From the IMG/VR virus record IMGVR_UViG_3300046004_000860, positions 1-46,043 of that record: a stretch of 46,043 bases of DNA. One strand, written 5' to 3'. This DNA is from a virus. This document shows positions 22,423 to 27,831 of the stretch, piece after piece; position 1 is the stretch's first letter, and the number at the start of each line of letters is the position of its first letter. A model generated the notes under the pieces. That model was not told where the DNA came from. It saw only the letters and a list, made by a program, of their open reading frames with translations, and did not search any database. Both the position numbers and the translations under genes were made by a program.

Positions 22423-24024
22423 CTACAGGTTGCGGTAGGGGTCGTAATCCAGCGAGCTCTCGGGCTCGCGCAGTGCGCGGATGGCGCGCACCTTGGGCGT
22501 ATCGATCAGCGCCAGGATCACGGCGGTGGCCCGGTCGGGGCTGCGGCCCACGCGCTCGATGATGTCGTCGCGGCTCTCGACCTTGATCGTCATGCCCGAC
22601 ATTTCCCAGCGCGGTGCACAGAGTTCGGCCAGCAGGTCCTTGTCGTCGGGCAGTGCGATGCCGTTGTCGGCCTGCGGGTCCAGTGCCTCGCGCATCTGCC
22701 ACCACAACTGGCTGCGCAGGTTGAAAAACGACAGGCGCCCGGACTTGTCCAGGCTCGTGGCGCGCTCGCTCACGTTGACGCCGTAGACGTCCTGGCCTGC
22801 GGAGTTGAGCACGTCGTAGGGGCTGGCGCCGACACCGATCACGTCCAACTGGATCGGTGCATGGTCGCGCCGCTCGCCGATCACCAGCCCGGCCACCACG
22901 TTGCCGTTGGGGGTCTCGCTGCCTGGGTAGACCTTGAGCTTGTCGAACCACAGCGTGGTCTCGGGTGCCTTGTGGCGCGTGGCGATGATCGTGTTGTCCT
23001 TGCCACCGCGCGCCACGTCCACACCCATGGCCATCATCTCGCCGCGGGGGTTGCGCTCTTTCCAGCGCGCCATGGCCATCTCTACCCACTTGGTGGGTAC
23101 AACCTGCCAAGGGTCATCTTCCATACCCGCCTCGAAGTCACCGCGCAGCATCTGACTGCGCAATGGCTCGGGCAGCGCCTGCAGCTGCGACATGTAGCCG
23201 GTCGACACGAGGAACGGGTTGTCGGTGATGCGCGAGGGGATGAACGTGCGCGACTCGGGCTTGATGATCTCCTCGGGCAGGTGCGCCAGGATGTCGAAGT
23301 CGTAGACGCGCTGCCCGGCTTCGAGCACGAACATGCGCGCATCGTTGTCGGCGATCCACACGTCCTTGCCGGTCTCGGGGTCGACGTACACGTAGCGCAG
23401 CACACCCGGGTCGGTCGGGTACAACGGGTGCTTCTTGTTGAGCCAGGGCGCGAAGAAGTCGATCACCCAGCGACCTTCAGCATTGGTCGGTGGGTTGAAC
23501 GTCAGCAGCGTGCAGGTGCGCTGCCCGGGCCGCGTGGTACGCACCCAGCCCTTCACGAAGCGCACCTGGGCCTCGAGGAAGTTGGCGGCCTCGTCGATCA
23601 CCAGCAGGTCCTTGGGTCGGCCCTGGTACTTGGTCTCGTCGCCCAGGTTGGGCATGGAGTTGAATTCGATTTGCCGGTCGTCGCTGTCGCGGTACACGGT
23701 GGGCTTGCCGTTGATGTCGGCGCGTGAGCCCACGATCTCGGCCAGGCGATCGATGATGCCGGTGAGCTGTGGGCCTTCACGTCGGAAGATCTGCGTGCGG
23801 TAGTGCTTGGTGATGGCCAGCCCCACGGCCAGATCCGTCTTGCCACCGCCGGCAGCGCCACCGAACCCGATCACATCCGCCTGGCTCTCGTAGGCCATCT
23901 GCTGCGGGCCTGGCAGCGGGCGCCAGCGCGCCTCCTCCAGGTCGGCTGCCACCAATGCGTTGAGCTCCTCGCGCTCGGCTGGGGTCAGGTAGCGCTCGAG
24001 GTCGCGCGCCTCTTGTGGGGTCAC
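22423..24024 (-). CDS. Terminase large subunit (533 aa)
   Basis: This is the DNA-packaging motor. Walker A is GGAAGGGKT at residues 55-63, and Walker B is LLVIDEAANF with Asp/Glu at 144-145. The C-terminal RNase H-like nuclease begins near 340 (MGVDVARGGKDNT), with a further Asp in LDVIGVGASPYDVL. Length is normal for the family. Translation starts at GTG 24024, which overlaps the TGA of the tiny membrane protein (GTGA), so the two are coupled. Confidence 0.95.
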   Translation of the reverse strand: MTPQEARDLERYLTPAEREELNALVAADLEEARWRPLPGPQQMAYESQADVIGFGGAAGGGKTDLAVGLAITKHYRTQIFRREGPQLTGIIDRLAEIVGSRADINGKPTVYRDSDDRQIEFNSMPNLGDETKYQGRPKDLLVIDEAANFLEAQVRFVKGWVRTTRPGQRTCTLLTFNPPTNAEGRWVIDFFAPWLNKKHPLYPTDPGVLRYVYVDPETGKDVWIADNDARMFVLEAGQRVYDFDILAHLPEEIIKPESRTFIPSRITDNPFLVSTGYMSQLQALPEPLRSQMLRGDFEAGMEDDPWQVVPTKWVEMAMARWKERNPRGEMMAMGVDVARGGKDNTIIATRHKAPETTLWFDKLKVYPGSETPNGNVVAGLVIGERRDHAPIQLDVIGVGASPYDVLNSAGQDVYGVNVSERATSLDKSGRLSFFNLRSQLWWQMREALDPQADNGIALPDDKDLLAELCAPRWEMSGMTIKVESRDDIIERVGRSPDRATAVILALIDTPKVRAIRALREPESSLDYDPYRNL

Positions 24025-24113: not shown

Positions 24114-24364
24114 GCGGCCACCTGCTGTTCTCCGGGCTTCGCAGTAACGGGAGGCAGCGGCTCAAGCCAGTCTTGCGCGAAGTCGGCGGTGGGGCCGATT
24201 GCCCCGTACTCGGTGACTATCTCGCCGACGACAGCAGTGCATCGCCAGATTCGTCCCAGCTTCGAGTGCTCGCCCTGCAGGGATACCACGCGCACGGTCT
24301 TGCCGACGTTCAGGCCGTCGGTGCCGCCTATCACTTTGCAAAGAACACCAGCGTAGATTTTCAT
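24110..24364 (-). CDS. Hypothetical protein between terminase genes (84 aa)
   Basis: It encodes MKIYAGVLCKVIGGTDGLNV, GKTVRVVSLQGEHSKLGRIW and an acidic C-terminus. The beta-rich pattern with GKTVRVVS suggests a small KOW/SH3-like barrel, but I do not recognise the family. ATG overlaps the TerS stop (ATGA), and its stop overlaps the next ATG. Confidence 0.65.
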   Translation of the reverse strand: MKIYAGVLCKVIGGTDGLNVGKTVRVVSLQGEHSKLGRIWRCTAVVGEIVTEYGAIGPTADFAQDWLEPLPPVTAKPGEQQVAA

Positions 24365-24930
24365 GCCAGATCCCCGAACTCGTCGGCCTCGATCTTGCGC
24401 TGCTTGGCCATGGCCAGCAGCTGCGCCACGCGCGCACTGCGCTTGGTCTCATCGATCACCACCGGTGCGCCCTCGGCGCCGGTGAGCTCGGTGCGATCCG
24501 CATAGACCTTCTTGCGTCGGCCCTTGAGGTACAGCGCCAGCATGGCGTCGCTGTGCTTGCGCACGGTGAGCGGGATGGGTTGGCCATGCTCGTCCAGCGC
24601 GATGCGCCAGCGTTCCTCCTCGACCTCCTCGCCGGTCTCGGCGTGGCGGTGCTTCACCGTGTAGCGCTCGTAGCGGTAGGCCAGGCGGCCCTTGTCGATC
24701 ACCGGCTCCTCGTAGCCCGTCACGGCGCGCCGGTAGGCCTCCTGCTCGGCCTTGTCGATGCCTTGCTCCATGGCGTCGTCCCAGGCTAGGGCGAAGTCGG
24801 CATCGGCCTCACGGGCACGATAGGCGGTGCTGCGCTCGATCTCCACGGCAGCGCAGGCGTGGGCTACCACAGGCACATCACGCAGTGCTGCCAGGAAGGC
24901 GGGTTTCCAGTCGAAGGGGTGTTTGGCCAT
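24361..24930 (-). CDS. Terminase small subunit (189 aa)
   Basis: Its N-terminal helix-turn-helix lies in FLAALRDVPVVAHACAAVEI and RSTAYRAREADADFALAWDD, then there is a charged central region and a C-terminal helical end (LLAMAKQRKIEADEFGDLA). This is the usual small terminase plan for packaging-site recognition, and it lies upstream of TerL. I chose ATG 24930; a TTG at 24939 is in frame. No good ribosome-binding site is visible for either. Confidence 0.82.
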   Translation of the reverse strand: MAKHPFDWKPAFLAALRDVPVVAHACAAVEIERSTAYRAREADADFALAWDDAMEQGIDKAEQEAYRRAVTGYEEPVIDKGRLAYRYERYTVKHRHAETGEEVEEERWRIALDEHGQPIPLTVRKHSDAMLALYLKGRRKKVYADRTELTGAEGAPVVIDETKRSARVAQLLAMAKQRKIEADEFGDLA

Positions 24931-24951
24931 GGTGTGCAATTTAGCGTGGTG

Positions 24952-25188
24952 CTATTCGGTCACGGATACGCGAACGATCCGTGCAATGGGTTGGCCGCGG
25001 CGCCGGCCAGATGCGATGTGCGCGATGCAGGATTTGCTGACGTCCATCTTCTCGGCCACCTTGGCCAGGGACAGACCCGACTCCAGCAGTTCCAGCACCA
25101 GCTCGACCTCGCTGTCCAGCAGCTTGGCTCGAGGGTGTGACTCACCGACCCGGCGGGAGTTTTCGTTCAGTGCGACCAGTTTCTGCAT
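24952..25188 (-). CDS. Helix-turn-helix DNA-binding protein (78 aa)
   Basis: ATG 25188 opens MQKLVALNENSRRVGESHPR, then a resolvase-type HTH: LESGLSLAKVAEKMDVSKSC followed by IAHIASGRRRGQ. AGGAG precedes the start by about 10 bases and overlaps the stop of the GIY-YIG gene. It is just upstream of TerS, so it may control late transcription or recognise a packaging/origin site; this is inferred. A longer frame to 25407 exists but would run through the GTTGC cluster without coding signals. Its last codons contain the variant late motif. Confidence 0.65.
   Translation of the reverse strand: MQKLVALNENSRRVGESHPRAKLLDSEVELVLELLESGLSLAKVAEKMDVSKSCIAHIASGRRRGQPIARIVRVSVTE
24961..24969 (-). promoter_or_regulatory. 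Variant late motif GTATCCGTG, copy E
   Basis: One base differs from GTGTCCGTG. It lies inside the last codons of the HTH gene rather than after its stop, and 31 bases before the TerS ATG. Its position at the head of the late genes fits the other four copies. Confidence 0.35.
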
Positions 25189-25201
25189 TTTTTGCACGCT
25201 C

Positions 25202-25843
25202 CTATGCCAGTTCGTTGAAATCTGCGGATTCAGTTCTTTTTGACCCCGCAACATTGCAACACTGCAACGTCCCCATAGGGTGACGTTGCGTTGCGTTGCA
25301 AATTTTGTCGCTGCGCAACGTGCAACGGGGTGCAACGTTGCACTGTGCGTTGCACGTTGCAGTGCCCAATCCGCACACGGCTGCAAGTTCAGCGCGCAAT
25401 ATTGCAACTTCGGCCTTCAGCTCCTTGTTCTCCGCACGTAGCTTTTTCATGTACGAATCGCTCGTGTGGGGGCTCCCGAGCGGTGCCAGCGTTACGTTCA
25501 GGTCTGCCTGCCCAGACTGCACCAGGTGTGCTATCCACCGGCTTTCAGCCTCGTGCCGAACCGCACCCTGCGGGTCTCCGACCTCCATCTCCTCCAGAAC
25601 GACGGCATGAATCTCCAGTGCCGACAGTCGCATCGCGGCCAGCCACCCTTCTTTCGGGGTGACCGCCCTTGCCTTGGTGCTGTGCCAATGGGAGTACAGC
25701 CTGTGCTCAATGCAGACCGATGAGCCCACGTACCTGATGCGCCCTGTGTGCGACTCGACCAGGCCGTAAACGCCAGAGGTGCCACGCCCGCCACGGCGGC
25801 GCTGCTCCCCTGACATGGCGCCTTCTAGGGTTATGGTTTTCAT
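25202..25843 (-). CDS. GIY-YIG endonuclease with Cys-rich tail (213 aa)
   Basis: The N-terminal GIY-YIG nuclease has GVYGLV at about residues 25-30, YVGSS, then RLYSHWHS and a later Glu. A coiled coil follows (YMKKLRAENKELKAEVAILR). The last 50 residues are Cys/Asn-rich (CNAQCN, CCNVA) because the DNA here is a cluster of GTTGC/GCAAC repeats. Freestanding GIY-YIG proteins nick DNA, often as mobile elements. ATG 25843 has AAAGG 8 bases upstream; the TTG at 25861 is less likely. The odd tail may be a zinc-binding region or simply read-through of a DNA site. Confidence 0.8.
   Translation of the reverse strand: MKTITLEGAMSGEQRRRGGRGTSGVYGLVESHTGRIRYVGSSVCIEHRLYSHWHSTKARAVTPKEGWLAAMRLSALEIHAVVLEEMEVGDPQGAVRHEAESRWIAHLVQSGQADLNVTLAPLGSPHTSDSYMKKLRAENKELKAEVAILRAELAAVCGLGTATCNAQCNVAPRCTLRSDKICNATQRHPMGTLQCCNVAGSKRTESADFNELA
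25248..25408. repeat. GTTGC/GCAAC pentamer cluster
   Basis: Seven GCAAC (25248, 25256, 25264, 25315, 25322, 25332, 25404) and six GTTGC (25285, 25290, 25295, 25337, 25349, 25356) lie in about 160 bases, several as TGCAAC/GTTGCA and some abutting head-to-head. This is far above expectation for a random stretch. The pattern is that of a multi-site protein-binding region (replication origin, regulator or packaging site) overlapping the 3' end of the GIY-YIG gene. Confidence 0.6.
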
Positions 25844-25854
25844 GTGGCGACCTT

Positions 25855-27831
25855 TCAGCAAATCGTGATGCAGCCATCGTCAGCGATCCAATAGGGTGCA
25901 TCGTCCCCGGTGGTCAGCGCCTCAAGCGCACGGCGCGCCCGCTGCTTGCGCGTGTCGCGCTTGTTATCGGTCGGTGCGTCCAGGCGCTTGACCGCCTCGG
26001 CCAGCACTGGGCCCACCTCGATGCCACTGTTCTGGGCGATCGCGTACTCCTGGATCACAGCGTTGACCACTTGCTCCACCGGGCCCAGTTTCTTCATCGC
26101 AATGCCACCCACGGCCGGCAGCGCTGCCTCGATGACCACGCAGCTGGTGATGGGCTCCAGATCCTCATCGACGCCGACCTTGACCACCTCGAGGTCAAAG
26201 CCCCACATCTGGCCGTCCTCGCCGTCCTTGCTCTTGGTAAGCCTCAAGCTGCGCCCTGCGACCTCGCGCACCACCTCGAGCTCTGCATCAGCGGCAGCAC
26301 GCAGACCCGACCAGCCCCGCGCCCCTTTGCTGGTGTCTTTGCCCGCGTGGTGGATCAGGATGACCATGGCGCCCGTGGCCTCGTGGATGCGCTTGCAGTG
26401 GGTGAGCGCCTTGCCCACGTCCTCGCCCGCGTTCTCGTTGGCGCCTGGCATGACCTGGGCGAACGTGTCCACGATGATGATGTCGGCCCCACCCCACGCG
26501 CGCACCGACTTCACGATGTCGACCGCGTCGGCCTTCTCCATCATGTTGGGCGCGGCGTGGATCACGCCGAAGTCCATGTCGGCCAGGTTGAACCCGTGGT
26601 GCTGGCCGTAGGCTGTCAAGCGCTTCCTGAAGCCCCCACCGCCTTCGGCCGCGATGTAGGCCACCCTGCCCTTGCGCGTCTTCTTGCCGCGCCACGGGAT
26701 GCCTCTGGCGATCGCTGCGGCCATGTCCAGCGCAATGAACGACTTGCCCGAGCCGCTGGCGCCGTACAGCACCACGAGCTCGGCCTGGGGCAGCACGTCC
26801 TTGATCACCCAGGTCGGTGTGGCGCCTTGTGAGAACTCGTGCGCAGGTATGACACCGAAGCGCAGGGGTTTGTCTGGCGCTGGTGGGGCGTCGACCAGGT
26901 CCTCGAACTCATCGGCGCCGGCGGGGCCGTTGAGGCTGATGCGTGCGCCGTACTGGTTGGCCAGGTGCACCAGGCTGCGCCCGGTTACCTGGGTGCCCCC
27001 GCCCTTGCCGAACGAGCGCCAGCGGTCCTCGTTGTACTCGCGCGAGCTGTACTTGCCCGAGCCCATGCACCACTCTTCCCAGATCTCGAACCCGGCGCCG
27101 CTGGTCTCGCAGTGGATGGCCATGCCCACCATCAGGTAGTCGTCGTAGTGCAGGTCGGTGGGCAGTGCGGCCAGGCACTCCTGAATCTGCGCCGTGGTCA
27201 GGCCCGCGGGCTCCCCACTGGTGCCGGTCTCCAGCGGCTCGGTGCTGCGCGTGAAGCGCTCGGCGTGCAGGGCACGCACGACCTCGGGCAGAGGTGCCAC
27301 GACGTCGTCATTGCCTAAGAGCTCGGTGATGTCCAGCGTGTTGCCGGTGAACGTGACAAAGCCCCGGGTGCTGAAGCACTCCATGCCGAAGTCGGTGTTG
27401 CGAATGGATTTGCCGTTGCCCAGGTCGCCTTTGAAGAAGGCCCGGATGCCCTGGCCACTGGGGGAGAACTCGGCGTAGGTGTCGCCCAGCAAGGCCTCCA
27501 CCTGGGGGTGGATCTTGCCGTCGGTGATGCAGTTGTCGAAGTCCAGTGCACAGATGCCGAACGACTGCAGTGCTGCGAAGCCCACGCCGTCGTAGCCCCG
27601 GCGCGCGGCAGCGGCCTTGGCCGCGTCGAACGTCACGAGGTTCGCTACATCCTTCGGTCCACCTTGTTCACCGTGACGTTTGCCGCCGTTGGCGTAATAC
27701 GGAACTTTGCGGGGTTTGCCGCCCCCGGGGACGGCCTCGAAGCGCCAGATCACCCAGGCGGGCAGATCACGAATGGCAGCAGGGGCTTCGACGTTGCGTA
27801 AGTGTGGGGTGATGTGTGCAACGTTGCTCAT
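25855..27831 (-). CDS. Primase-helicase: PrimPol-like N-terminus and RepA-like ATPase (658 aa)
   Basis: The N-terminal part resembles a bifunctional primase/polymerase domain (ICALDFDNCI near 95, FSPSGQGIRAFFKG). A middle PriCT-like segment follows (YDDYLMVGMAIHCETSGAGF). The C-terminal half is a RepA/DnaB-type ATPase with Walker A GASGSGKS near 355, Walker B IIIVDTFAQV and an LIHHAGKD motif. It should prime and unwind DNA with the phage polymerase. It begins 166 bases after the regulator operon, a gap rich in inverted repeats. GGGGTA stands about 8 bases before the ATG. Confidence 0.88.
   Translation of the reverse strand: MSNVAHITPHLRNVEAPAAIRDLPAWVIWRFEAVPGGGKPRKVPYYANGGKRHGEQGGPKDVANLVTFDAAKAAAARRGYDGVGFAALQSFGICALDFDNCITDGKIHPQVEALLGDTYAEFSPSGQGIRAFFKGDLGNGKSIRNTDFGMECFSTRGFVTFTGNTLDITELLGNDDVVAPLPEVVRALHAERFTRSTEPLETGTSGEPAGLTTAQIQECLAALPTDLHYDDYLMVGMAIHCETSGAGFEIWEEWCMGSGKYSSREYNEDRWRSFGKGGGTQVTGRSLVHLANQYGARISLNGPAGADEFEDLVDAPPAPDKPLRFGVIPAHEFSQGATPTWVIKDVLPQAELVVLYGASGSGKSFIALDMAAAIARGIPWRGKKTRKGRVAYIAAEGGGGFRKRLTAYGQHHGFNLADMDFGVIHAAPNMMEKADAVDIVKSVRAWGGADIIIVDTFAQVMPGANENAGEDVGKALTHCKRIHEATGAMVILIHHAGKDTSKGARGWSGLRAAADAELEVVREVAGRSLRLTKSKDGEDGQMWGFDLEVVKVGVDEDLEPITSCVVIEAALPAVGGIAMKKLGPVEQVVNAVIQEYAIAQNSGIEVGPVLAEAVKRLDAPTDNKRDTRKQRARRALEALTTGDDAPYWIADDGCITIC

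Follow-up and report, generated by a model that had tools for sequence, protein, structure and literature searches.

An array of GTTGC words beside a viral primase-helicase gene: a predicted replication origin whose words co-vary with the C-terminus of its proposed initiator

We analysed a stretch of viral DNA, hereafter called the window, which comprises 46,043 bases of the virus record IMGVR_UViG_3300046004_000860. On its minus strand, a primase-helicase gene, a GIY-YIG ORF, a dense array of short words and the genes for an HTH protein, TerS and TerL follow one another in this order. The primase-helicase (25855..27831), which we propose as the initiator, consists of an AEP-type N-terminus, PriCT_2 and an AAA_25 helicase. 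The GIY-YIG ORF (25202..25861), situated between the primase-helicase and the array, matches PF01541 below the cut-off. The HTH protein is encoded at 24952..25188, the terminase small subunit (TerS, phrog_4044) at 24361..24939 and the BPP-1-like terminase large subunit (TerL) at 22423..24024, all on the minus strand. The window terminase shares 67% DNA identity with that of Bordetella phage BPP-1.

An earlier note, made from the sequence alone, pointed to thirteen GTTGC/GCAAC pentamers lying before the HTH gene and TerS, and considered a replication origin, a multi-site regulator target or a packaging signal. Counting yields exactly these thirteen at 25248-25408 (seven GCAAC and six GTTGC), and HTH (25188-24952) and then TerS (24939-24361) do come after the cluster. 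The array proper, however, comprises twelve sites (25248..25360, minus strand), arranged as >>><<<|>>>tip<<< and kept in relatives. The thirteenth site, a GTTGC at 25404..25408 on the minus strand, is located beyond both hairpins described below, in the part of the GIY-YIG ORF coding for a coiled coil, and probably does not belong to the array. Over the whole window GTTGC/GCAAC is found 152 times, against a shuffle mean of 152.1, so that about 0.5 matches are expected per 160 bases. The array is the densest group in the 46-kb genome, where such a site occurs once; the runner-up holds four matches in 157 bases. In 20 Markov-shuffled windows, the top count per 160 bases was 3-5 for GTTGC and 6-8 for any pentamer. 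Cumulative GC skew, which is confounded by the genes, reaches its maximum at 23.7 kb and does not clearly mark the array.

The GIY-YIG ORF reads through the cluster, and its last ~55 codons form the Cys/Asn-rich nuclease tail already remarked upon in the earlier note. The note suggested weighing conservation of this tail against that of the pentamers, and it is the array that is conserved: the GIY-YIG protein has no relatives in the viral contigs or in the phage collections, and the ORF is missing at this place in nearly all relatives of the locus. The Cys/Asn-rich end is mere translation through the predicted origin array.

Next, relatives of the locus were compared. Scanning with the HTH protein as query produced 65 loci, most of them keeping the order primase-helicase, array, HTH, TerS, TerL. 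In close relatives the 300-base stretch preceding the HTH gene carries 8 to 18 GTTGC words, about ten times the expectation. In others an equally dense group is built of a different word, namely CCCTTCA (L003/L004), AGTCGG (L035/L036), GTGGGA (L040), CGAACA (L019) or GGTGACA (L047-L049). The ~60 C-terminal residues of the primase-helicase vary together with the word. In one locus (L033) the array follows directly after the primase-helicase stop, ~570 nt from the HTH gene. The genome collection contained only two relatives of the primase-helicase, and no such array was found in the genome of Caulobacter phage RW, even though it encodes a full-length homologue, a fact that counts against the origin reading put forward below. 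Another locus (L028, 3624-3920) possesses tandem arrays, the first with nine copies of GGTAAC and the second with eight of GGGACA; each has a tip of its own, and both come after one primase-helicase; two readers or a recent change of origin are possible explanations.

The 150-nt flanks of the arrays (57 loci) contain a second motif, ~CG[TC]GCA[AG]AANTTTGC, which is independent of the word. Its density amounts to 1.05 per kb near the array and 0.012 elsewhere, a difference of ~90-fold. Examples are found in L107, L078 and L100, and a near match lies at 25186-25200 of the window. It is frequently found near the start of the HTH gene and could serve as the site of the HTH protein or as part of a promoter.

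A scan with an alignment of the helicase region found helicase matches in 120 loci, of which 80 were distinct, and a tree of the helicase core, built without the C-terminus, included 77 rows (L028, L068 and L149 were left out). In 61 rows the C-terminus contains a D[TS]R[KR] helix, and 57 of these are informative. In the helix KRD[TS]R[KR]-x-X, where X is the position of Arg631 in the window, His goes with GGTGC, while Arg, Lys, Leu, Met or Val goes with GTTGC. All 57 informative loci obey this code, 10 with His/GGTGC and 47 with non-His/GTTGC (Fisher 2e-11 with kinship ignored). The four remaining rows comprise two exceptions, L019 (DSRRSR), which has CCGAACA, and L045, with only a weak GTTGC group, and two contigs that end soon after the stop (L131 785 nt and L114 11 nt after it). 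L126, L156 and L159, which have DTRKQR but lack an array close to the stop, carry GTTGC groups farther off, at 713 to 2273 nt. On the helicase-core tree His is gained or lost at least seven times, and all five independent pairs on well-supported branches agree with the code, which alone gives p 0.06.

Two later scans added 54 new C-termini, of which 13 have the motif and 10 are informative; the code holds in all ten. The exceptions here are L182, with mixed GGTGA/GGTGC words, and L276 and L274, which have neither word despite the helix motif. The motif does not cover the DTRAQH proteins of L184, L190 and L197; AAGTGCA words accompany two of them, L190 and L197, and L184 has no words within 900 nt. 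Other helices are paired with words of their own, such as DTRAQH with AAGTGCA, DQRRTT with GCTGCA, and the DRRR type with GCCACA/GTGGCA and kin (loci L190, L197, L271, L255, L278, L046, L086 and L089). As far as sequences can tell, these pairs suggest a wider residue-to-base code. That the C-terminus of the primase-helicase reads the words, one residue predicting one letter of the word, is strongly supported by this co-variation.

To avoid choosing loci by their protein, the second half of the array was searched as DNA in viral contigs. This element-first search returned 62 GTTGC and 37 GGTGC stretches, of which 14 and 3, respectively, had fewer than nine words and were set aside. All 40 of the remaining 48 GTTGC arrays for which 700 nt of upstream sequence were available follow a primase-helicase ORF within that distance. 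Among the 34 GGTGC arrays, 29 had upstream sequence available and 26 of these follow a primase-helicase according to the script. Inspection of the other three revealed that in L362 and L370 the ORF is truncated but ends in the same C-terminus, and that L376 has a primase-helicase on the opposite strand, ending ~120 nt away. The residue in the DxR helices is Arg in 32 of 32 GTTGC arrays and His in 13 of 13 genuine GGTGC cases, a single G in the GGTGC tally being the product of an artefact ORF in L376. Many contigs of this set overlap earlier ones; five C-termini new to it (three Arg, two His) also obey the code. The helicase beside the array is not always joined to an AEP primase: in some loci an AAA_25 helicase with a fused Toprim primase precedes the array. 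Among 19 such Toprim-type loci with at least 1500 nt of downstream sequence, none showed an HTH gene within 1 kb, and four had a terminase within 2 kb, though the queries may miss distant terminases. Arrays thus occur where no HTH gene and mostly no terminase was detected, and their constant partner is the helicase rather than either of these genes.

The C-terminus and the word have also been exchanged together in nature. In L071 and L092 the helicase matches that of the window residue for residue through '...AALPAVGGIA'. The L071 DNA is 94% identical to the window up to ~26099 and then diverges into a different C-terminus and word: a C-terminus of the CCCTTCA type is followed by two CCCTTCAC words before the contig ends inside the array, which is thus only partly visible. 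Further sister pairs with swapped C-termini and words are L110/L130, L108/L093, L118/L105, L036/L109 and L121/L027. In comparisons of GN/GD-type with DTR-type C-termini, seven of seven independent pairs differ in their word (p 0.016). The contig of the near-twin L071 (IMGVR_UViG_3300046005_001222) breaks off in the word array, its other end lying in TerL; the break inside the array suggests that such origins may be assembly breakpoints.

The C-terminal domain proposed to read the words covers residues 560-658 (25858..26154, minus strand). An AlphaFold2 model derived from 66 aligned C-termini (mean pLDDT 85, pTM 0.72) shows a winged-helix fold consisting of a helix, a second helix, a recognition helix and a two-strand wing. 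The predicted recognition helix, RKQRARRALEALT, spans residues 628-640 (25912..25950, minus strand; helix 69-81 in the DSSP assignment of the model). Residue 631, whose change from Arg to His accompanies the change from GTTGC to GGTGC in relatives, is located at its start (codon 25939..25941, minus strand). Structural neighbours in VIA-align are ORC, Cdc6, Fur and other winged helices, with Z of 8.3 and below; for a predicted model, these matches support only the fold, which is a common one. A sequence search of the C-terminal profile against the PDB gave chance-level matches only. The origin-binding domain of P4 was absent from the fold lists, but nothing follows from this.

On the minus strand the array folds into two hairpins. 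Hairpin one (25315..25360 in the DNA fold of the minus strand) consists of three forward and three reverse words. Hairpin two (25248..25311, minus strand) begins with a closing stem GCGAC/GTTGC and an A-rich bulge; three forward words then lead to a CACCCTATGGGG tip, and three reverse words come after it. The tip region, GTCACCCTATGGGGAC, occupies 25269..25284 on the minus strand, and the CACCCTATGGGG tip and its kin recur in arrays composed of other words. Folding of the whole element on the minus strand gives z -5.3 as DNA and -6.0 as RNA. The closing stem of hairpin two, which is not a word, could be matched to a pattern in 31 of the 57 loci, giving 16 distinct stems; 67 of their 80 cells are paired versus 41.5 after shuffling, a value not reached in any of 5000 shuffles. 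Since the closing stem stays paired despite changes of its sequence, hairpin formation itself seems to matter. Among mismatches on the array strand, G.T exceeds A.C by 7 to 1, which is too weak to argue for a strand-specific reading as RNA. Across the 57 loci the arrays contain 6 to 13 exact words, the first lying at a median of 36 nt from the primase-helicase stop. Exact words read >>><<<>>><< in 13 of the loci and a looser form of this order fits 39.

Of the three roles considered in the earlier note, a replication origin fits best. We consider the array most likely to be an origin to which the primase-helicase binds through its C-terminal winged-helix domain, and assign this reading a probability of about 0.86. 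The winged helix of the upstream-encoded protein would bind the GTTGC words directly; as these form two groups, each with three forward and three reverse copies, there could be room for two helicase hexamers. DNA opening by the helicase would then take place at the array, where the N-terminal primase would also prime. Origin identity is inferred from analogy with the SaPI, pRN1 and PLE systems.

All co-variation evidence concerns the reading of words rather than origin activity, and the primase-helicase might instead bind the array as a copy-control, incompatibility or autoregulatory site that is not the origin itself. Phage P4 offers a precedent, having a second alpha-binding region, crr. We regard this alternative as unlikely: there is one array per genome here, its architecture fits two hexamers, and the SaPI and pRN1 sites known at this position are, in the available parts of the published accounts, origins.

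Another proposal, that the element is a structured RNA or a single-strand hairpin in which words are repeated only through mutual pairing, could draw on the strong DNA and RNA folds, on the closing stem that pairs through changes and on the excess of G.T over A.C mismatches. It is quite improbable, since pairing alone explains neither the joint change of all copies nor the tie between the word and a residue of the recognition helix; moreover, Rfam at its gathering score yields no match in 24900-25900. A role of the hairpins besides binding, by analogy with pRN1, is quite possible.

The packaging signal proposed in the earlier note, that is a pac/cos-like site bound by TerS, is not supported. 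In the window 300 bp separate the array from terS downstream of it, and AEP-type relatives likewise have terS close by, but the word of the array follows the C-terminus of the primase-helicase and a terminase was detected nearby in only the four Toprim-type loci mentioned, which makes this reading very improbable. We give hardly any credence to the words being operators through which the neighbouring HTH protein, the product of 24952 named as a candidate ligand in the earlier note, regulates the packaging genes: its gene adjoins the array in most AEP-type relatives, but its recognition helix SKSCVAHIATGRRR is identical at loci with three different words (L012, GTTGC; L003, CCCTTCA; L024, GTAGGG-like), the HTH tree disagrees with the words, no HTH gene could be detected near any of the 19 Toprim-type arrays, and the L033 array lies beside the primase-helicase stop, well apart from the HTH gene. 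The HTH protein thus appears as a conserved neighbour, not as the reader of the words.

The origin proposed here, read by the C-terminal domain of its primase-helicase, would have counterparts in several known systems. The alpha protein of phage P4 is a primase-helicase with a C-terminal winged-helix origin-binding domain and iterons at ori1/crr; it belongs to another helicase family than the window protein and its iterons are longer. We found no sequence link between the window primase-helicase and P4 alpha. In the window a DNA-binding domain at the C-terminus is present as a predicted winged-helix fold, and specificity, as known from SaPI/P4-type origins, is seen as co-variation, with the exceptions L182, L276, L274, L019 and L045. 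Pfam finds AAA_25 and PriCT_2 instead of D5_N, and the helicase falls neither into the SaPI Rep/D5 family nor into the SF3 helicases of pRN1. By analogy, the window protein would work like initiators of the SaPI/P4 type but belongs to none of their helicase families.

According to the available part of PMC7581432, SaPI origins lie directly downstream of the helicase gene, their iterons are bound by its C-terminal domain, apparently as two hexamers, and SCCmec Cch2 does likewise in vitro. With SaPI Rep and Cch2 the window has in common that a short-repeat array comes immediately after the helicase gene and, as proposed here, is read by the C-terminal domain. It differs in that the helicases described there are of the DUF927 or D5/Primase_Cterm type, whereas that of the window is AAA_25/RepA-like and fused to AEP, or in relatives to Toprim, and in that its words form a two-hairpin array (PMC7581432, same part). 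In the literature searched, no origin of this kind was described for AAA_25/RepA-like helicases.

In plasmid pRN1 a stem-loop 3' of the replication gene is needed for replication, and a similar one was proposed for BIP-1/BPP-1, in which the accessible text leaves the binding motifs open and reports no iterons (PMC4234260). The window resembles them in having, 3' of a replication gene with an AEP primase, a long stem-loop whose structure is conserved despite differences in sequence, and in the C-terminal winged helix; their enzymes, unlike its own, have SF3 helicases (PMC4234260, as far as available). BPP-1, a structural-gene relative of the window, has a word-type inverted repeat, ACGAGGCAAACGAGGCAA twice, at ~26.6-26.7 kb and not at the stem-loop published at 27,177 (PMC4234260, available part). 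This perfect inverted ACGAGGCAAACGAGGCAA pair (L069 9488-9591, corresponding to NC_005357 ~26607-26710) lies between the DNA primase gene and HTH bbp27 and is a candidate origin of a cultured phage. The code presented here supplies binding motifs that the pRN1/BIP-1 model, in the portion available, left open (PMC4234260). More generally, the rule would locate origins and predict their words from protein sequence across many uncultured phages.

It is conceivable, and we propose it tentatively, that winged helix and word array, linked by a simple residue-to-base code, constitute a portable initiator cassette which is recurrently swapped by recombination. If so, its exchange may let phages evade replicon incompatibility, satellites or origin-directed nucleases, and the GIY-YIG gene may be such an origin nuclease, targeting the array, or a homing element that settled there. 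Its position against the predicted origin recalls the ICP1 nuclease Odn (PMC8263062, available part). The switch between Arg and His, together with the C-terminal exchanges found in nature, provides a testable case of initiator and origin changing together. In the PLEs, as described in the part of PMC8263062 available, initiator DNA-binding domains and origins have likewise been exchanged together under pressure from an origin-directed nuclease. The PLE initiator is of the RepA_N type, satellite-borne, with ~30-bp iterons and, in that part of the source, no helicase or primase described; PLE RepA/ori and the locus analysed here have in common that the DNA-binding domain of the initiator co-varies with its iterons and has been swapped repeatedly (PMC8263062).
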